Positions 17,524 through 26,506 of a DNA stretch of 64,000 nt are shown in pieces. How positions within the stretch are numbered: the first letter of the stretch is position 1; every line of letters starts with the position of its first letter. The position numbers and the translations under genes were made by a program. The notes under the pieces are model-generated. The model did not search any database. It saw only the letters and a list, made by a program, of their open reading frames with translations, and had not been told where the DNA came from. This DNA is from Collinsella tanakaei. GTDB taxonomy: Bacteria; Actinomycetota; Coriobacteriia; Coriobacteriales; Coriobacteriaceae. The stretch spans positions 1 to 64,000 of the forward strand of contig NZ_JAUDCO010000001.1 in NCBI RefSeq assembly GCF_030373545.1, read 5' to 3'.

Positions 17524-20058
17524 ATGGACACCAAGGTTCTTGAGAAGTTCTGCCCATGGGCGCGCGATGAGCTGGTCGACGCTGTCCGCAACCGCTGCAT
17601 CGCCTGCGGTCTGGACGGGGTCGGCCGCGCCAGCGCCCCGCGCGGTTCGCGCATCGTCAACAACGTGGTGCTCACAGACGATGAGCTTACACAACGCGAC
17701 AACCTCATCGCCCTCATCGACGAGCTGGGCTACGAGGCCTTCCTTGAGCGCGAGGCATACACGTGGTTCAATCGCTTTGCCGGCATCAGGTACATGGAGC
17801 TCCACGGCTACCTGCCCAGCCGCGTACGCATGTTCTCGGCAGTCGACGGCTCATTTGACCCTGAGTGCCTGCGCGCCGTAGGTGAGCTCGACCTGCCCGA
17901 ACTCGACCGCGATCGCGCGCTCGACCTTGCCGCCGAGGGCAAAGATGCCGAGCTGTTCCGCATAATCCTTATCGCCCAGTGCAACCAGCTAGCCGATGCT
18001 CTTCCCGCCGTGTTTGACCACGTGGACGATACCGACGCCCTCATGCTGCCGGACGGCCTGCTCATCCCGGGCGAACACAACGTGCTGCACCATTTGGTGG
18101 CCGACATCCCCGAGCGGGCGTGGGACGACGTCGAGGCGCTGGGCTGGATGTACCAATTCTACAACGCCGACCTCAAGGCCGACTTCTTCAAGTCCAAGCG
18201 CAAGGCCGCACCGGAGGACATCGCGCCGGCAACCCAGCTCTTCACGCCCGACTGGATCGTGCGCTACATGGTGGACAATTCGCTCGGTCGCCTGTGGATG
18301 CTGAACTTCCCCGATAGCCGCCTGCGCGAACGGGCCAGCGCCGAGAACCCCGCTGATCGGCTCATGGAGTATTACATCGAACCCGACCAGGAGCACGAGG
18401 ACTTCATTCGCATCTCCGGCCCCGAGGACATCACGTTCTGCGACCCGGCGTGCGGATCGGGTCATATCCTCGTGTACGCGTTCAAGATGCTCATGGCAAT
18501 GTACGAGGAGCGCGGCTACCGCGAGCGCGAGATTCCCGAACTCATCTTGACCAAGAATCTCTCCGGCATGGAGATCGACGAGCGCGCCGCGCAGATCGCC
18601 CAGCTGGCGCTGGCCCTGTGCGCTCGCGAGCACGATCGGCGCTTCTTCGGGCGCGGGATCGTGGCCGACGTGCGCACGCTGTCGAACATCGAGCTCAGCG
18701 CCGACGAGCTGCCCGAGACAAGCGCGCTCGTGAGTCACAAGCATACCGGCCTGCTGGAAAGCCTGACGCACCTGGGCGAGATCGGCAGCCTGCTTGCCAT
18801 CGATGAAGGCGAACTGGGATGTCTGCGAGACGACGCTAAGGTCTGCGCACACGTGGCGACAGAAACCGGCGACGTGCTTCTTGCCAACAACGCAAAAAGG
18901 CTCGCTTGCGCGCAGAGCGTCTGCGAGACACTTTCCCGCCACTTCGACGTAGTCGTCGCCAACCCGCCCTACATGGGCAGCAGCAGCTTCAACCCGTTCA
19001 TGAGCAAGTGGATGAAGAAACGGTACCCCGACAGCTGCAAGGATCTGTGCACGGCGTTTATCGAACGCGGCTATTCACTTGCACACGACAACGGCTACGC
19101 CGCCATGGTCACGATGCAGTCGTGGATGTTCCTCGGCAGCTTCGAGAAGATGCGCAAGCGCATCATCGACGAGAAGACGATCCTCACCATGGCGCACCTG
19201 GGGCCGCGCGCGTTCGACGCCATCGGCGGTGAGGTCGTCTCCGTCACGGCAGACGTCCTCTTCAACGGCAAAACTCCGGTAAAGGGTGCCTATGCGCGAC
19301 TGGTTGACATCAACGGCAGCGAACCCAAGCGCGAGAAGCTCCTCGAAGCCATCCACAACCCCACCTGCGGCTGGTTCTACCGAGCCGACGCCACCACCTT
19401 CCACGACATCCCTGGCTCCCCCATCGCCTATTGGGCGAGCGAAGCTGCGATGCAAGTATTCAAAAGCCTTGAACCTCTCAAAAAAATAGCCCCCACAAGA
19501 AAAGGCATGTTTACCGGAAACAATGATTATTTCCTTAAGCGGTGGTTTGAGATAAGCCATTGCAAAATCGGGACTAGCTTCAAGCCCTATTGCAAGGGCG
19601 GCGCTTTCCGCAGGTGGTACGGGAATCGCGACTATGTTATTCGGTGGCATTCAAATGGCAAAGAAATCCGTGAATCACGGCGAGCGGGCAATGTAAATGT
19701 GGCCGACTACTTTAAGCCATGCATCTTTTGGTCTCTAGTTACTTCCGGCGACATTAGTTTTCGTATTATCGACACCAATGACTTTGTAATGGGAGATGCT
19801 GGTCCTGCTTGCTATCCCAGAGGCGAAGATTCACTCGTTTTATTAGGGCTGCTTAATTCCAGCTCCATACGATCTCTTTCAAAAATGATTAATCCTACAC
19901 TGAACTGGAGCAGTGGAGTTGTTGGATCCTTTCCCGTGCCGCATCTGGGGCACGCCAAGTTTTATAACGAGCTCGTATCCCGATGCATTCAGATTGCTCG
20001 ATCCGACTGGGACTCTCAAGAAACCTCTTGGGACTTCAAGCGCAATCCGCTGGTGTGA
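17524..20058 (+). CDS. pglX: PglX N-terminal part: BREX adenine methyltransferase and target recognition region
   Basis: This 844-aa protein is the catalytic part of the BREX N6-adenine methyltransferase that marks host DNA. SAM motif I is FCDPACGSGH (residues 305-314) and motif IV is NPPY (480-483). The target recognition region follows. The protein ends at SWDFKRNPLV, a point that lies in mid-protein in full-length PglX (about 1200 aa). The missing part is encoded separately at 25532-26506. Base composition becomes clearly AT-richer from about 19440 (residue 640) on, which points to a swapped specificity region. AAGGAG precedes the start. It follows brxC by 9 bp. Confidence 0.92.
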   Translation: MDTKVLEKFCPWARDELVDAVRNRCIACGLDGVGRASAPRGSRIVNNVVLTDDELTQRDNLIALIDELGYEAFLEREAYTWFNRFAGIRYMELHGYLPSRVRMFSAVDGSFDPECLRAVGELDLPELDRDRALDLAAEGKDAELFRIILIAQCNQLADALPAVFDHVDDTDALMLPDGLLIPGEHNVLHHLVADIPERAWDDVEALGWMYQFYNADLKADFFKSKRKAAPEDIAPATQLFTPDWIVRYMVDNSLGRLWMLNFPDSRLRERASAENPADRLMEYYIEPDQEHEDFIRISGPEDITFCDPACGSGHILVYAFKMLMAMYEERGYREREIPELILTKNLSGMEIDERAAQIAQLALALCAREHDRRFFGRGIVADVRTLSNIELSADELPETSALVSHKHTGLLESLTHLGEIGSLLAIDEGELGCLRDDAKVCAHVATETGDVLLANNAKRLACAQSVCETLSRHFDVVVANPPYMGSSSFNPFMSKWMKKRYPDSCKDLCTAFIERGYSLAHDNGYAAMVTMQSWMFLGSFEKMRKRIIDEKTILTMAHLGPRAFDAIGGEVVSVTADVLFNGKTPVKGAYARLVDINGSEPKREKLLEAIHNPTCGWFYRADATTFHDIPGSPIAYWASEAAMQVFKSLEPLKKIAPTRKGMFTGNNDYFLKRWFEISHCKIGTSFKPYCKGGAFRRWYGNRDYVIRWHSNGKEIRESRRAGNVNVADYFKPCIFWSLVTSGDISFRIIDTNDFVMGDAGPACYPRGEDSLVLLGLLNSSSIRSLSKMINPTLNWSSGVVGSFPVPHLGHAKFYNELVSRCIQIARSDWDSQETSWDFKRNPLV

Positions 20059-20063
20059 TTACT

Positions 20064-20627
20064 ATGTCTAATAAATGGTCTTTTAAATGCAGTGTAAAAC
20101 TGTCCGGAGAAACAAATAGTAGCTTGCAAAAGATCGTCCAATTCTACCTCTGGGAAACACCTGTTCCGAACACATCAGAAAAGGGCGTGCCGTTTGCCTT
20201 GATGGGGATTGAAAAATCTAAGTACAAAACGCTTCAGGCTGAAATGCGAAAACATAGCGGGTTTCCCGCGGCCGATGGCCATGACTGGAAAAAGACAACC
20301 ATTAAATCCATTGAAAAAGATTTGAAGAGCCTTGATCGTCTGGATAGATACGATTGTTCATTTGAATTCGCCATTCATACAGTAAAAAACGGGCTGGGCA
20401 AAACAGAAGCTCTTTTTTATTTCATCAGAAACGCCTTTGCTCATGGGGGATTTCGTATCTCAACCTACAAAGGAGAACACTACTTTGTCCTAGAAAACCG
20501 AAAGAATGGCTCAATTAGAGGACGAGCAATTTTAAAAGAATCAACACTGCTCAGCTGGGCAAAATTGATTAACGATCTACGCAGCAAAAAGAAGAAACTC
20601 GTACCATCAAAGAGCGGTAAGCGGTAA
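20064..20627 (+). CDS. HEPN-like protein with R-x4-H motif, cargo inside pglX
   Basis: This 187-aa basic protein belongs to no family I can name. Residues 116-130 (ALFYFIRNAFAHGGF) carry RNAFAH (R122, H127), the R-x4-6-H motif typical of HEPN domains, many of which are RNases in defence or toxin systems. The C-terminus is Lys-rich (LRSKKKKL). It starts 5 bp after the stop of the N-terminal pglX half and has no good Shine-Dalgarno, so it is probably coupled to pglX translation. It is AT-rich compared with brxA-brxC. A terminator follows at 20734. Calling it an RNase is inference from one motif. Confidence 0.7.
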   Translation: MSNKWSFKCSVKLSGETNSSLQKIVQFYLWETPVPNTSEKGVPFALMGIEKSKYKTLQAEMRKHSGFPAADGHDWKKTTIKSIEKDLKSLDRLDRYDCSFEFAIHTVKNGLGKTEALFYFIRNAFAHGGFRISTYKGEHYFVLENRKNGSIRGRAILKESTLLSWAKLINDLRSKKKKLVPSKSGKR

Positions 20628-21049
20628 TTATGATGCCTTATTTTGCCGATGCCATCTTCCATCTCAACCTTGATTGTCACGGTGATTTGATCTGCAAGTT
20701 GAATGAACGGAGAAGCCCGAAAGCAAGTCGCAGAAAAGGCGAGTTGCGCGCTTCGTCGCCTTTTCCACTAGGGGGTTGTAGCGCGTTGCCCCGTACCGGG
20801 GGGATCCCCCAGCCCTTGGAAGCCCGCCCTTACGGTCAGACCATGCCAGCACATCTGCGCGTACGGCATCTCGACCTTACTACCCGTCGGCAGCAAGCCC
20901 GTAAAGTCAGTGTACAAAAAACTGAATTGCACCCTGCAATAGGAGCCATTCTTTTCATCCCCATACGTTTGAGTTCTTATCCCGAACGCGAGCATGAGCA
21001 CCAGAAATGGGCAAGCGATGGATTTATCCAACGTGTCTCTACACTCCGC
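20628..21049. other. Intergenic region with bidirectional terminator
   Basis: The 422-bp gap separates the HEPN-like gene from the convergent DUF3800 gene. Besides the terminator at 20734-20764, it has a GC-rich block near 20765-20900 with open frames on the minus strand (for example 20768-21031, 87 codons) that lack a ribosome binding site and recognisable motifs. I see no supportable gene. It may be a relic of an earlier insertion. Confidence 0.5.
20734..20764. terminator. Bidirectional rho-independent terminator within the BREX locus
   Basis: AAAAGGCGA (20734-20742) pairs perfectly with TCGCCTTTT (20756-20764). The run of T on the plus strand and of A (T on the minus strand) makes it functional in both directions. 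It should end the brxA-to-HEPN transcript and also the leftward DUF3800 transcript. Confidence 0.8.
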
Positions 21050-21724
21050 TTATTCCATCCGGAGTTTGAGAAGTTCTTTGTATGGTCCCTTTTTGAATTT
21101 CTGCCAACCTCCAAAGAACTTTTCGTATGTAGGCGTAAGCCGATGATCACGATACTTTCTTGCAGCGAGCTCGAGAGTGCAAATGTAGTCGGCAACCTGA
21201 GAGAGCCTGTATTCAGAAGCCGTTGCGGATCGGTATACGACTGCACTCTTAAAGAAAACAAGGTCTACCGCTTTATGCAGGGCATCTGTAATGGAGCCCT
21301 GTCCGCCATCGTAATAAATCTTGATTTCGTCAAATGCCTGAAAACTGCTGAGATTGTCAAAGAAGAACTCTACGAACCGTTTTCGCATAGCGCGAGACAT
21401 GTCGTCTTTCGATCCAAACTCTTTCATTCTGAATTCAAACAACTTATAGCGAATAGGCAGATGTCTCACGAATACTCTAAATGCATTCAACAACCTACTT
21501 CGGGTTTCGAGCGCAAGTCCCTCATACTCGCAATGCCCGGTCATGAGGGGCGTTGCATGGAAAGGGATATTCGGCATATCTCGAGCTATCAAACTCTGCT
21601 CATAAAGGCCGATCGATTCTCGGACGCTCGCATCTTGGTTGTGGAATACCAGAGTAAGCAGGTAATAGGGCTCTCGCAAGTCATCGCTGCCGGATTCATC
21701 GACAAAAATACTCAGCTCTGCCAT
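21050..21724 (-). CDS. DUF3800 protein
   Basis: This 224-aa protein belongs to DUF3800, a family with an RNase H-like fold prediction that is common in phage-defence and mobile regions. The N-terminal FVDESG (residues 7-12), a central YYDGG, and the C-terminal QVADYICTLE are the hallmark acidic motifs. The start at 21724 is set by TTGGAG upstream and the hallmark beginning right after it. It is the only minus-strand gene in the BREX locus. It has its own promoter (21801-21830) and a leader hairpin (21733-21774). Nuclease activity is plausible, not shown. Confidence 0.8.
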   Translation of the reverse strand: MAELSIFVDESGSDDLREPYYLLTLVFHNQDASVRESIGLYEQSLIARDMPNIPFHATPLMTGHCEYEGLALETRSRLLNAFRVFVRHLPIRYKLFEFRMKEFGSKDDMSRAMRKRFVEFFFDNLSSFQAFDEIKIYYDGGQGSITDALHKAVDLVFFKSAVVYRSATASEYRLSQVADYICTLELAARKYRDHRLTPTYEKFFGGWQKFKKGPYKELLKLRME

Positions 21725-21732
21725 ATAAACCA

Positions 21733-21774
21733 CTCCAAGAAAAAAGCCGGGGAAAACGTCCCCGGCACTTGGAG
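21733..21774 (-). promoter_or_regulatory. Terminator-shaped leader hairpin that can hide the DUF3800 ribosome binding site
   Basis: In the minus-strand transcript the order is CUCCAAG (21774-21768), GCCGGGG (21766-21760), loop, CCCCGGC (21752-21746), U6, then CUUGGAG (21739-21733), which contains the Shine-Dalgarno of DUF3800. The GC stem plus U6 looks like an intrinsic terminator. CUCCAAG is the exact complement of the Shine-Dalgarno segment. Transcription or translation of DUF3800 should thus be off unless the fold is disturbed. Confidence 0.65.
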
Positions 21775-21800
21775 GCCTCTCCGAAAAGAGAACCATCTAC

Positions 21801-21830
21801 TTTATACCACACGCCGGTTCGGCAATTCAA
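21801..21830 (-). promoter_or_regulatory. Promoter for DUF3800
   Basis: On the minus strand TTGAAT (21830-21825) and TATAAA (21806-21801) are separated by 18 bp. The predicted transcript begins near 21795 and carries a ~70-nt leader with the hairpin at 21733-21774. The promoter faces away from, and lies next to, the LexA-like boxes. Confidence 0.65.
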
Positions 21831-21840
21831 TCATACCAAA

Positions 21841-21887
21841 ATACGAACACATGTTCTCCATGATAGATACGAACATATGTTCTCCAT
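21841..21887. promoter_or_regulatory. Two LexA/SOS-box-like palindromes
   Basis: CGAACACATGTTCT (21844-21857) and CGAACATATGTTCT (21870-21883) each match 13 of 14 positions of the Gram-positive LexA consensus CGAACRNRYGTTYC. They lie within 21-bp direct repeats that differ at one base and start 26 bp apart. They end 22 bp before the start of the 1205-aa gene. The longer repeat leaves open that a dedicated repressor, not LexA, is the binder. Confidence 0.7.
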
Positions 21888-21905: not shown

Positions 21906-24900
21906 ATGGCAAGCTCGTACTCGAACATCGAAGCGCAGGAGATCATCGCGTCTGCGAACGCGGCCGCAGTCGCTATCGGCGGGATCATTCGCGAGCGCCT
22001 GGAGTATGAACTGGAGATAGCAGATCTCTATAAAAAGCTGCTCGACCAGGGCGGCAATGAGCTTCCCAGGTGCATTTCGCTCGTACGCACGGGTCCGGGC
22101 AAGTACCGCACGCCCGCGGCGGGGAAGAAGGGCGGCACCGCTTCGAACCTCTACCTCGCGGCGACATCCGGTACGGATGCGGTGATCGAGACGCGCTCCG
22201 GAACATATAATGTCCAGGAATGCTATAAGCGGGTGCGCGCAGCGGCCGGGATCGACGAGTTTGACGACGCCTTCGAAGACCTCATCTTTGCGGGGTACAA
22301 GCGTTGGCTTCACGAAGAGATTCTCGACAAGCCCCTATCCGAGTGGAAGGCCTTGAAAGCCACCATTGAGCGCGACGCAAAGGCAGCCGAGCCCGCGCTG
22401 CAGGGCGGGCTGTCGCGCCTCTTTATGAACGCCCAGGCCAAGCAGGAGGCATTCGACGCCCTTGACGAGCTGAAGAGCATCAACGTGGCGGGCATCGTCT
22501 TCGATTTGGAGTTCTGGCATGAGAAATCAACGCAGACGTACTTCATCAAAGAGGACGTTCTCTATAGTTTCCGGCACAGCGAAACCACGCGGAACGACGT
22601 CCTGCGCTGCTTGCATGCGCAGCTCGGGGATTTCGAGCTTAACGGCGGCATTCGCAGGCCGTTCTACTCGGATGCGGTGCAGCAGGTGCTGGACGAGCTC
22701 GAAGGCATCTCCGGCGTGCGGCGCGGCGTCTCTGCAGCCCAGCAGGCTGTGGCGGACTCCATTCCCGCAGCGATAGAGGAGTTGAAGGAGAGCGACGTTC
22801 TCGCGAAGCTCGCGCAGCACCCCATCGAGGAGCTGGCGGAGGCAAAGACGGGTGCGCAGATTAAGAAGCTGCGGGACGCGGGTGTCCACACGCTTGCAGA
22901 TCTGTATGAGCGTCTCAACGCGCCGGAACGCGGTGAGCTGCCCGGCGTGGGTGCGAAGACCCGCAGCGCCATCGAGAAGTATTTGGATCCGATCGTCGCT
23001 GAAGCGCGCAGCTGCTGGAGCCTGCACCTTTCCGCTCGCGAGCAGGGCGAGGCCGCCACGAGGCTCGTCCGCACCGTGGGGGCGCATATCGAGCTGGGCA
23101 AGCTTCTCGATAAGGCTCAGGAGGCGCTGGCGGGGCAAGACGCGTTGTCTGCACAGCAGACGGACGACCTGCTGTTCGCGACCGATGATATCGACTGGCT
23201 GCTTACCGACGACGATCACGTGCAAGCGGCCTCCGGCGCCATGGACGCCGCGCGCGCATACCTCGACACCAAGGACGGCGCGTGGCTGCTTTCGCTGTCG
23301 CGCGGCTCCAAAATCAAGAAGCTCGAAGACGAGCTGGTTTCCTCGAGCAAGGCCTGGAAAGATTTCGAGAAGAGGCCAGACGCGTTCTATGAGGTTATCG
23401 AGCAACTTGCTCCCGAGGCTCTGGTGCAGCCGGAGCAAGAGCCGGCGAGCGTGGGGGCGGGGCAGCCGGAAGCTGCTCCGGCGGTAGAGGCGGAGCGTGC
23501 AAAATCCAAGCGTAATACCGCAGAATCCGTCGACACCCGTGAGCCCCATGAAGCTCCCCGTCCGGTTGCGCAGCAGAAGGCCGGCGCAGACCTTCTCGAG
23601 CAGACGAGGACGTTCTACCAGAAGTTCGAAGGCCTCACCATGATGTTTCCGCCCGCGGAGGACGCCCCGGCCTTCAACGCGAAATCGAAGTACTCCGTTC
23701 GCGCGGACGCACCGCGCGCCCAGGGCAGCACCTTCTCCCTCGCCATTCCCGACGGTTGGGTAAGCGAGAAAGATACCAGCGGCCGCGCATTCGTCCTGGT
23801 GCCGGAGGAGCATGCTGGCGAGGGGGTGGATTCGAACATCGCGATCCTGTACGGCGATGCGCCGGTTCCCGACGATTACGCCTCTAATATGCAGAAAATC
23901 GGCGTGGATCCAGCCCTATGGTCGCTCAATTATGAAGCGCGAAGCTGCCGTTCCGACTTTACTCTTGAGATGCACGAGGTCCAGGCCCGAAATTGTCGTT
24001 GTGCCGTTGTGCAGGTTCCAACAGCCGATGAGGAGTGCTCTGAGTTCTACATCTACCCCTACTCGCTCATCGGGCAGGATTACGCCCGCGTCACGTTCTA
24101 TGACCCGGGAGACGTTACGTACGAGCAGGCTCGAACCTTTGTTGACAATTTGGCGCGTACGGTAGAGGCTAGCGGATCCACGGTGCCAACCTGTCTCGAT
24201 CAGCTGGAGGAGAGATTCCTTGCCCGCTCGAATGACTTTTCATTTTCGTATCGTGAAGTCTTCATGACCGTAATGGATCAACTAGCTTACTTAAGGAATT
24301 CGGTATTGGGCGCCGGAGCGCGTTTCTGCGAGGCTCTCAATCCCGCGGCGGGAAGTCGGGCGCGGAACATCTCTGGAATAATCGCTCTGTCGCAGTTTTT
24401 TGACGCCTGCGTTCCCATCGCCGTTCGCTTCGTCGATGTTATAGAAGAATGGGCGCGCGTTGACCGTTCGAAAGAGATTTTCAACCGATTTACCTGCAAA
24501 AGCATGCTGGAAGAAATCGGCGACAAGTTTATTATCTCCAGCGATATGTTCTACGACTCCGCCCTCTCCGCCGAAGAGCTCGAAAAGCTGTGCGTTCCCT
24601 CACCGAGGCAGCGAGGACTACTTGAGAGGATTTCGCATGCCCTTGTTTTGCTTGGCTTCGACGAATACGGCACAGAAAAGAAAAACGAAACAGTGATTGA
24701 AGTTGATGCAAGCGGAATCATTCGGGACGCTATCAACCACTTCGCGAGCCAGAGTGATTCAGAGCTTCAAAGTCACGTTGTGACCGAGGACGGCGACCAA
24801 GCAGAGGGGCTCGAAGGAAGGCTCGAGCCTGCTGAACAACAGTCTTCAATGAGCGCGCGCGCTCGAAAGATTCTTGCGGGTCAAATCGCCCCCGATCAGT

Positions 24901-25523
24901 ACGATTCGCCCACGGTAATATGTAACCTTTTGGCTCAAAGAACGTTCTTCTTCGATTCGGAAGACATTGCGTGGGACGGCAGGCACCATACGATTACCAA
25001 CGTCAACGTTAACGCTTCCCAAGCTGAAAACCTCAGCGACGATGCACTCAACACCTTGATGAACGAAACGGCCAATACCTTCGGGGTTGTGCTAACAGAA
25101 ATCGAGAAGGACGAATTGCTGTTTGTTCCACGCAGTAGAATTGCGAGCGGAATCGAGCAGGCGCTTCCCGAAGGCGACCTTACCGGCATCACACTCTGCT
25201 ACCTCATCGGATGTCTTGGCGCATTCTCTTGGAGGGGCACAGAAAACTGCTATCAGGTTTATTTCGACCCACGACTTGAGAAAGGTATACCGCAGTTCTT
25301 CAGCCTCGTGGCACGACTGATCTGGGATATTCGTGACCAATTTCTCATGTCAGAAGATTCGTTCGACATCATGTTCTTCAGGACGCGCAATTTTGATGCG
25401 GACGCCTTCTTGGGTGATGTTGATGAGCCCGTAATCGGCGTCCAAGACTGCCCGAACTTGCTCAATGTACGCGAACAGCCGAGCGTTGATCTTTCAGATC
25501 AAAGCGCAAAAACAAACTGCTAG
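21906..25523 (+). CDS. Unknown 1205-aa protein with helix-hairpin-helix, behind SOS-like boxes
   Basis: I do not recognise the family. A helix-hairpin-helix-like segment spans about residues 322-361 (LRDAGVHTLADL and LPGVGAKTRSAIEKYL), a non-specific DNA-binding motif seen in repair proteins. A Glu/Ala/Pro-rich linker lies near 505-560. A beta-rich segment starts near 608 (STFSLAIPDGW). The C-terminal third has no motif I can name, and no Walker, nuclease or membrane signature was seen. The first ~760 codons are GC-rich like the host; the remainder is AT-richer, so the gene may be a mosaic. AGAAAGG at 21890-21896 precedes the start. Its stop codon overlaps the Shine-Dalgarno of the C-terminal pglX half. 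Confidence 0.75.
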   Translation: MASSYSNIEAQEIIASANAAAVAIGGIIRERLEYELEIADLYKKLLDQGGNELPRCISLVRTGPGKYRTPAAGKKGGTASNLYLAATSGTDAVIETRSGTYNVQECYKRVRAAAGIDEFDDAFEDLIFAGYKRWLHEEILDKPLSEWKALKATIERDAKAAEPALQGGLSRLFMNAQAKQEAFDALDELKSINVAGIVFDLEFWHEKSTQTYFIKEDVLYSFRHSETTRNDVLRCLHAQLGDFELNGGIRRPFYSDAVQQVLDELEGISGVRRGVSAAQQAVADSIPAAIEELKESDVLAKLAQHPIEELAEAKTGAQIKKLRDAGVHTLADLYERLNAPERGELPGVGAKTRSAIEKYLDPIVAEARSCWSLHLSAREQGEAATRLVRTVGAHIELGKLLDKAQEALAGQDALSAQQTDDLLFATDDIDWLLTDDDHVQAASGAMDAARAYLDTKDGAWLLSLSRGSKIKKLEDELVSSSKAWKDFEKRPDAFYEVIEQLAPEALVQPEQEPASVGAGQPEAAPAVEAERAKSKRNTAESVDTREPHEAPRPVAQQKAGADLLEQTRTFYQKFEGLTMMFPPAEDAPAFNAKSKYSVRADAPRAQGSTFSLAIPDGWVSEKDTSGRAFVLVPEEHAGEGVDSNIAILYGDAPVPDDYASNMQKIGVDPALWSLNYEARSCRSDFTLEMHEVQARNCRCAVVQVPTADEECSEFYIYPYSLIGQDYARVTFYDPGDVTYEQARTFVDNLARTVEASGSTVPTCLDQLEERFLARSNDFSFSYREVFMTVMDQLAYLRNSVLGAGARFCEALNPAAGSRARNISGIIALSQFFDACVPIAVRFVDVIEEWARVDRSKEIFNRFTCKSMLEEIGDKFIISSDMFYDSALSAEELEKLCVPSPRQRGLLERISHALVLLGFDEYGTEKKNETVIEVDASGIIRDAINHFASQSDSELQSHVVTEDGDQAEGLEGRLEPAEQQSSMSARARKILAGQIAPDQYDSPTVICNLLAQRTFFFDSEDIAWDGRHHTITNVNVNASQAENLSDDALNTLMNETANTFGVVLTEIEKDELLFVPRSRIASGIEQALPEGDLTGITLCYLIGCLGAFSWRGTENCYQVYFDPRLEKGIPQFFSLVARLIWDIRDQFLMSEDSFDIMFFRTRNFDADAFLGDVDEPVIGVQDCPNLLNVREQPSVDLSDQSAKTNC

Positions 25524-25531
25524 GAGAACCC

Positions 25532-26506
25532 ATGGCAACCCTCATCCGTGACAAGTACGAGGCGCACAAGGCCGAGGTCAATGCGCGCTTCGACCAGCTT
25601 AAAGCCAACGAAGAAGAGCTCAATCGCATCTTTGCGGAGATCTACAACATGGTGGGCGAGGTACCCATCGAGGTCGAGGACAAGTACGTCTCGGTCGCGC
25701 GGATCTTCGACACGGCCGACGAGATCCCCGAGAGCTTCAAAGGCAACAACTACGTCCGCACCATGCGCGACGAGATCGTCTCGCTCATCTCCTATGCCGT
25801 GGGCTGCATGTTCGGCCGCTACTCACTCGATGTGGACGGCCTAGTGCTCGCCAACCAGGGCGACACCGTGAACGAATACCTCGCCAAAATGCCCGACCCC
25901 GCGCACGTGAGCTTCATGCCCGTGGCAGACAACGTCCTGCCCATCACGGACGACACCTACTTCGAAAACGACATCTGCACGCTCTTCGAGCGCTTCCTCG
26001 TGGCGGCCTACGGTGCGGAGACGCTCGAGGAGAACCTGCGCTTCGTAGCCGATGCCCTCTCCCCCGCCGCCAAGGGCACCCCGCGCGAGACCGTGCGCGC
26101 GTACTTCCAGAAGGAGTTCTTCGCCGACCACTGCAAGACGTACAAAAAGCGCCCCATCTACTGGCTGCTGGACGCCGGCAAGAAGGGCAGCTTCCGCGCC
26201 CTCATCTACATGCACCGCCACCAACCCGACCTCATGGCGCGCATCCGCACGGACTACGTGCTGCCGCTGCAGCAGCGCTACGCGAGCATGCTCGACAACA
26301 TCCAAAACGAGCTGGAAACCGTCGAGGGACGCCGCCGCGCCGCCCTCGTCAAGGAGCAGAAGCGCGTCACCGACCAGGCCGCCGAGCTCACGAAGTTCGA
26401 GGAGAAGATCCATCGCCTCGCCGACCAGATGATCGCCATCGACCTCGACGACGGCGTGAAGGTCAACTACCCGAAATTCGGCGACGTGCTCGCGAAAATC
26501 AAGTAA
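25532..26506 (+). CDS. pglX: PglX C-terminal part, separated from the N-terminal part
   Basis: This 324-aa frame corresponds to the C-terminal end of type 1 PglX: FDQLKANEEELNRIF, SYAVGCMFGRYSLD, HCKTYKKRPIYWLLDAGK and IDLDDGVKVNYPKF are family hallmarks. In other BREX loci this segment is continuous with the methyltransferase. Here it has its own start with AGGAG at 25522-25526 overlapping the stop of the 1205-aa gene. The break falls between the SWDFKRNPLV end of the N-half and the helical C-domain, with nothing obviously lost. The two parts may assemble as a split enzyme, or the break may inactivate it. Confidence 0.92.
   Translation: MATLIRDKYEAHKAEVNARFDQLKANEEELNRIFAEIYNMVGEVPIEVEDKYVSVARIFDTADEIPESFKGNNYVRTMRDEIVSLISYAVGCMFGRYSLDVDGLVLANQGDTVNEYLAKMPDPAHVSFMPVADNVLPITDDTYFENDICTLFERFLVAAYGAETLEENLRFVADALSPAAKGTPRETVRAYFQKEFFADHCKTYKKRPIYWLLDAGKKGSFRALIYMHRHQPDLMARIRTDYVLPLQQRYASMLDNIQNELETVEGRRRAALVKEQKRVTDQAAELTKFEEKIHRLADQMIAIDLDDGVKVNYPKFGDVLAKIK

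Follow-up and report, generated by a model that had tools for sequence, protein, structure and literature searches.

The window, a stretch of 64,000 nucleotides from Collinsella tanakaei, contains a type I-like set of BREX genes encoding BrxA, BrxB, BrxC, PglX, PglZ, and BrxL. PglX is encoded on the plus strand in two parts, which are separated by 5.5 kb of cargo. The N-terminal part (17524–20058) matches positions 1–869 of the 1174-position PADLOC PglX profile, and the C-terminal part (25532–26506) matches positions 877–1170. A split pglX is usual in the BREX loci of the family, and the gene is fused in two relatives. The cargo includes a gene on the minus strand for a DUF3800 protein of 224 amino acids (21050–21724, with the ATG at 21724–21722). 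A small protein with a sub-threshold HEPN match (pEK499_p136) is encoded at 20061–20627, between the N-terminal part of pglX and the DUF3800 gene.

The leader of the DUF3800 gene, read on the minus strand, starts with the promoter TTGAAT-18 bp-TATAAA (21801–21830), the two boxes of which are located at 21830–21825 and 21806–21801, as an earlier sequence-only reading of this DNA had stated. Downstream of the promoter lies a small RNA (21739–21796) that matches positions 1–58 of our RNA model R1 with a score of 39.3 bits and an E value of 2.7e-8. Hairpin P1 of the RNA (21774–21795) is defined by covariation in the family and by the fold of the window copy. It is connected by the linker CUCCAAG (21768–21774), which is nearly invariant across the family in the form UCCAAG, to the terminator hairpin P2 (21746–21766), with the sequence GCCGGGGA-CGUUU-UCCCCGGC. 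P2 is the strongest minus-strand site in the terminator scan, and is followed by a U6 tract (21740–21745) and by the segment CUUGGAG (21733–21739), which contains the Shine-Dalgarno sequence GGAG. The sequence-only reading had described a 7-bp GC stem and U6 at this position; the G+C-rich hairpin and the U6 tract are present, and the stem consists of 8 bp with the loop CGUUU. P1, where covariation within the element is strongest, was absent from that description.

The minimum free energy structure of the isolated leader, calculated using RNAfold, has an energy of −32.8 kcal/mol and includes both the terminator stem and a 7-bp stem formed by CUUGGAG and CUCCAAG. The exact complementarity of these two segments had been pointed out before; it is present in the window leader and is exceptional for one sequence. 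With a z-score of −2.1, the leader is only modestly better folded than its own shuffles, and it is the comparison with relatives that places the promoter and hairpin far above the level expected by chance. An in-frame ATG at 21796 opens a reading frame that continues through the hairpin; most relatives do not have this ATG, and a leader open reading frame was rejected.

The promoter and leader recur upstream of homologues of the DUF3800 gene with protein identities of about 41–58%, whereas the flanking sequences do not. The order of the elements is the −10 box TATAAA, P1, linker UCCAAG, 8-bp P2, U tract, Shine-Dalgarno sequence, and start codon, the last of which is mostly positioned 18–40 nucleotides downstream of P2. 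The RNA unit is about 58–62 nucleotides long. A TATAA-like −10 box at a nearly fixed distance from the RNA is present in 71 of 80 distinct leaders, compared with three of 104 control stretches. The alignment of all the leaders by MAFFT shifted the 5′ arm and lost P1, and equal-length seeds with a covariance model were used instead. In the resulting alignment of 95 distinct copies, which is fitted to the covariance model, 14 of the 17 base pairs exhibit compensatory changes, 95.8% of the cells are paired, and the number of compensatory cells is 218, compared with 72 in shuffles. A MAFFT alignment of 14 sequences with equal P1 length, which was not fitted to any model, contains compensatory changes in 10 of the 17 pairs, and its covariation score is 0.382, compared with 0.161 after shuffling.

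Compensatory changes are found across the family at each of the nine model pairs of P1, the letters of which vary in step. The 8-bp stem of P2 is kept in nearly all homologues, with 99.3% of the cells paired and compensatory changes in five pairs. The comparison of homologous leaders that the sequence-only reading had proposed as a check turned out in favor of the hairpin, which is conserved in both close and distant homologues. In pairs of loci whose proteins are on average 48% identical, the identity of the RNA core is 89%, compared with 25% for the upstream flank and 33% for the Shine-Dalgarno region. The similarities of RNA and protein correlate overall with a Mantel r of 0.34, which decreases to about 0 for distant pairs; among pairs with protein identity below 60%, there is no correlation (r 0.07). 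Fine co-evolution of the RNA with the protein was therefore dropped as support. The comparison of sequences shows a conserved RNA together with its fold, promoter, terminator, and partner gene.

The RNA model matches 162 of the 395 genomes of the order Coriobacteriales (E value of at most 0.01), and the DUF3800 protein matches 149 of the 395. In a sample of 296 genomes from across the phylum, ten genomes have an RNA match; all ten are from the order, and the RNA is absent from the sampled genomes outside it. It also occurs in one metagenome-assembled genome labelled Actinomycetaceae (L016). Among the matches listed, 91 of 150 RNAs are located at most 200 nucleotides upstream of a listed DUF3800 gene. 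A set of 44 other RNA copies was followed up. In 13 of them, the DUF3800 gene downstream is truncated, interrupted, or internally deleted, and 25 that have enough surrounding sequence are followed by no recognisable DUF3800; the remaining copies run off the end of a contig. No other common partner protein was seen for these 25 orphan RNAs. The copies were found by the model, so intact ones are favored; within this limit, RNA copies with an intact fold persist at sites that have a broken gene or have lost it. Searches for viral and phage copies gave no useful match.

The genome of the window contains RNA matches only at 21739–21796 and 20794–20842. The second match, also overlooked in the sequence-only reading, is a module on the minus strand that consists of P1, the linker, and P2 without a U tract (32.0 bits, E value of 4e-6; genome-wide E value of 1.1e-5). 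It is positioned about 200 nucleotides downstream of the DUF3800 gene, and neither a DUF3800 remnant nor a clear promoter was found around it. In L112 and L124, two modules are located upstream of one gene, and the first of them is without a U tract. The copies lacking the U tract in the window, L112, and L124 indicate that the module is more than a terminator. The leaders of L112 (4673–4899) and L124 (4676–4900) are longer, and their two modules flank a similar stretch of about 120 nucleotides.

When close copies of the gene are located in different surroundings, their homology often starts about 105–116 nucleotides before the start codon, which corresponds to the promoter of the RNA, and the shared stretch reaches the stop codon or beyond. 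In L054 and L055, DUF3800 genes about 97% like an RNA-bearing one have a leader that is replaced upstream of a point shortly before the start codon. An insertion with the end AATGTCATTAACTTAAGCGG appears to lie within hairpin P2 of the RNA in L105 (5000–5200) and L093.

Even with lax thresholds, no Rfam family matches the RNA of the window or those coriobacterial relatives that were tested, and no Rfam riboswitch or leader was identified. The DUF3800 RNA motifs of Rfam, DUF3800-I to XI, differ from the window RNA in sequence and linker. Motif DUF3800-XI (RF02975) matches upstream of the gene in two clostridial relatives, L024 and L037, at a somewhat greater distance in the latter. Its layout of a hairpin, a linker, and a G+C-rich terminator hairpin resembles that of the window RNA, and both are short structured RNAs beside DUF3800. 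The window RNA shares with the DUF3800-associated RNAs the combination of covarying structure and position next to DUF3800 genes. Because DUF3800-XI fits the clostridial relatives and no Rfam family fits the coriobacterial ones, we file the RNA as a DUF3800 RNA; among the known "DUF3800 RNAs", it seems to form an additional class, located in gut Coriobacteriia and missing from Rfam. The DUF3800 RNA motifs are credited to Weinberg et al. 2017 in PMC10910872.

The protein of the window belongs to Pfam family PF12686 (E value of 6.6e-7, 30.6 bits compared with a gathering score of 21). Its AlphaFold2 model has a mean pLDDT of 92. The top solved structures identified by Foldseek include RNase HII, RNase H2, RuvC, and RNase HI, with E values of 1.3e-3 and weaker, none of them below 1e-3. 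The best viral Foldseek match is another DUF3800, and no solved relative was found by sequence. Residues D9, E10, G12, H28, H56, D139, Q142, Q176, D179, and C182 are invariant in 24 aligned homologues. The predicted fold of the protein is that of RNase H, in agreement with the fold reported for DUF3800 (PMC10910872, PMC12669027). The predicted fold and the invariant acidic residues make the effector-like role put forward in the sequence-only reading plausible for a nuclease. Some Cas12a2 and VI-F CRISPR loci encode DUF3800 proteins, for which a role in interference or in crRNA biogenesis or degradation has been proposed (PMC10910872, PMC12669027). The window protein shares the domain and the proposed fold with them, whereas neither a CRISPR array nor a Cas effector was noticed in the window BREX locus. 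No function of DUF3800 has been tested experimentally in the literature searched. The family is nuclease-like; its members have been found next to CRISPR effectors, and unexplained RNAs adjacent to them have been on record since 2017.

Many gut bacteria carry the RNA in front of this nuclease-like gene. It occurs as a stand-alone unit, in copies without a U tract, in doubled copies, and in copies without a gene, which argues for a non-coding RNA partner rather than a cis-acting switch. The hairpin is accordingly read here as part of an RNA product. The leader RNA is probably a partner, perhaps an antidote, of DUF3800 rather than an on/off switch of one gene. On balance, we favor the interpretation that the leader is a discrete non-coding RNA with its own promoter, and a specific ligand that most likely keeps the partner DUF3800 nuclease inactive. 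The best explanation of the module would be an RNA-protein pair resembling type III toxin-antitoxin systems, with the gene expressed by read-through of the terminator.

We infer that transcription would start at the promoter of the RNA, and that most transcripts would end at P2 and yield the RNA. A minority would read through P2 and give rise to the DUF3800 protein. The RNA would then bind the protein as a specific ligand and most likely hold the nuclease inactive. A shift in the ratio of RNA to protein, for example when a phage shuts down host transcription, could free the nuclease, by analogy with type III toxin-antitoxin systems and AbiF/RCd22. Inhibition is proposed because the layout of the locus equals that of type III systems (PMC5086642) and of AbiF/RCd22 (PMC12373285). 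In the type III systems ToxIN, CptIN, and TenpIN, a promoter and RNA are followed by a Rho-independent terminator and then by the protein gene (PMC5086642); a Rho-independent terminator separates the RNA and gene in the window as well. However, the type III RNAs are tandem repeats and their proteins are endoribonucleases with the ToxN/AbiQ fold, whereas the window has one upstream module, two being found only in L112 and L124, and a protein with a predicted RNase H fold. In AbiF/RCd22 of Clostridioides difficile, a non-coding RNA with a Rho-independent terminator is likewise located directly upstream of the gene for a toxic protein. This RNA restricts read-through; it also binds the protein and neutralises it, both in cis and in trans (PMC12373285). 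The AbiF/RCd22 RNA contains two motifs and is paired with an Abi_2/AbiD/F protein that is related to the ancestors of Cas13 (PMC12373285), which differs from the one upstream module and RNase H-fold DUF3800 of the window. The single upstream module of the window, without a tandem array, counts against an RNA antidote. So do the several genomes that have RNA copies and no DUF3800 match, since an antitoxin is not needed where there is no toxin. The orphan RNAs may be young relics, and the retention of the RNA after gene loss could reflect chance deletions downstream. A compact module of a 58-nucleotide RNA and a nuclease that is this common is directly testable.

The main rival to the antidote is a cofactor role, in which the RNA activates or guides the DUF3800 nuclease in a ribonucleoprotein effector and the terminator sets an excess of RNA. 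The conserved acidic residues in the predicted RNase H fold are consistent with such an effector, as is the presence of DUF3800 in Cas12a2 and VI-F loci with proposed interference and crRNA roles. Against this role, the RNA lacks a variable stretch resembling a guide: the linker, which is unpaired, hardly varies, and differences in sequence are confined to the covarying stems and loops. The RNA kept beside broken genes is also harder to account for, and we regard a cofactor role as rather unlikely.

The sequence-only reading had proposed that the leader would keep the gene silent by early termination or by sequestration of the ribosome binding site. As an attenuator, the terminator, helped here by the Shine-Dalgarno pairing, would silence the gene until an antitermination signal arrives. 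The terminator is indeed located between the promoter and gene, both are conserved, and expression by read-through is likely; a gene-specific attenuator is not supported. The minimum free energy structure of the window leader contains the Shine-Dalgarno pairing, but the pairing is not conserved. When 76 distinct leaders were compared, their longest Watson-Crick pairing with the Shine-Dalgarno region had a mean of 3.72 bp, compared with 3.67 bp with shuffled downstream sequence, and a 7-bp pairing is found in only two of the 76. Judged from these leaders, the anti-Shine-Dalgarno pairing is nearly private to the window locus and not a feature of the family, and CUUGGAG pairs with what is the conserved linker of the RNA. 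Sequestration of the ribosome binding site was rejected on this comparison. Furthermore, an alternative antiterminator that is conserved was not seen, the conservation of the RNA core relative to the protein exceeds the needs of a terminator, and the element also occurs without a U tract and without the gene. Attenuation is thus improbable as the function of the element. It is more improbable still that the hairpins are the ends of a mobile element moved by DUF3800, similar to REP/RAYT or IS605 elements, with the deleted copies as non-autonomous derivatives. Such an element would explain why copies flank the gene in the window, L117, L129, and L086, why internal deletions retain both gene ends, and why copies occur in differing surroundings; the RNase H fold is also common to transposases. 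Nevertheless, the right boundaries of similarity differ (the stop codon, +148, and +332), that of one group is an ordinary terminator, and no inverted ends or target duplication were noticed. The second copies usually have their own promoters or decayed genes, and the covariation of the stems is that of paired RNA, with a conserved promoter in front of them.

The module recurs within BREX anti-phage loci beside LexA boxes. The RNA-DUF3800 unit is located between the halves of pglX in the window, L018, L117, L086, L017, L112, and L124. A DUF3800 gene occupies this position in L235, and an orphan RNA in G168. Two LexA-type boxes of the window, CGAACACATGTTCT (21844–21857) and CGAACATATGTTCT (21870–21883), are 26 bp apart, and pairs with this spacing adjoin the unit in the window, L018, L086, and L117. 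The boxes were assigned from their sequence and from those at SOS genes of the same genome, where the LexA operator motif GAACN4GTTC is present upstream of lexA, ruvC, and a Y-family polymerase gene. The box pair at 21844–21883 lies between the RNA-DUF3800 unit and divergent plus-strand genes encoding a 1205-amino-acid protein, the C-terminal part of PglX, a helicase, PglZ, and BrxL. This arrangement suggests that part of the BREX locus is under SOS control. We tentatively consider it possible that the module is a new kind of RNA antitoxin system, composed of a single-unit RNA and an RNase H-fold nuclease, and an accessory of SOS-controlled BREX loci with split pglX. If so, DNA damage or phage attack would tune both the RNA-DUF3800 module and BREX.

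The 1205-amino-acid protein (21906–25523), which adjoins the LexA boxes, has no Pfam or PADLOC match, and a relative of it is present in fragments in the BREX locus of G168 (L231). Further defence-like genes may be under LexA, since elsewhere in the genome of the window the palindrome GAACATATGTTC is found near genes for Schlafen AlbA_2, DUF1016, and Fic domain proteins (L006, L007, and L008).
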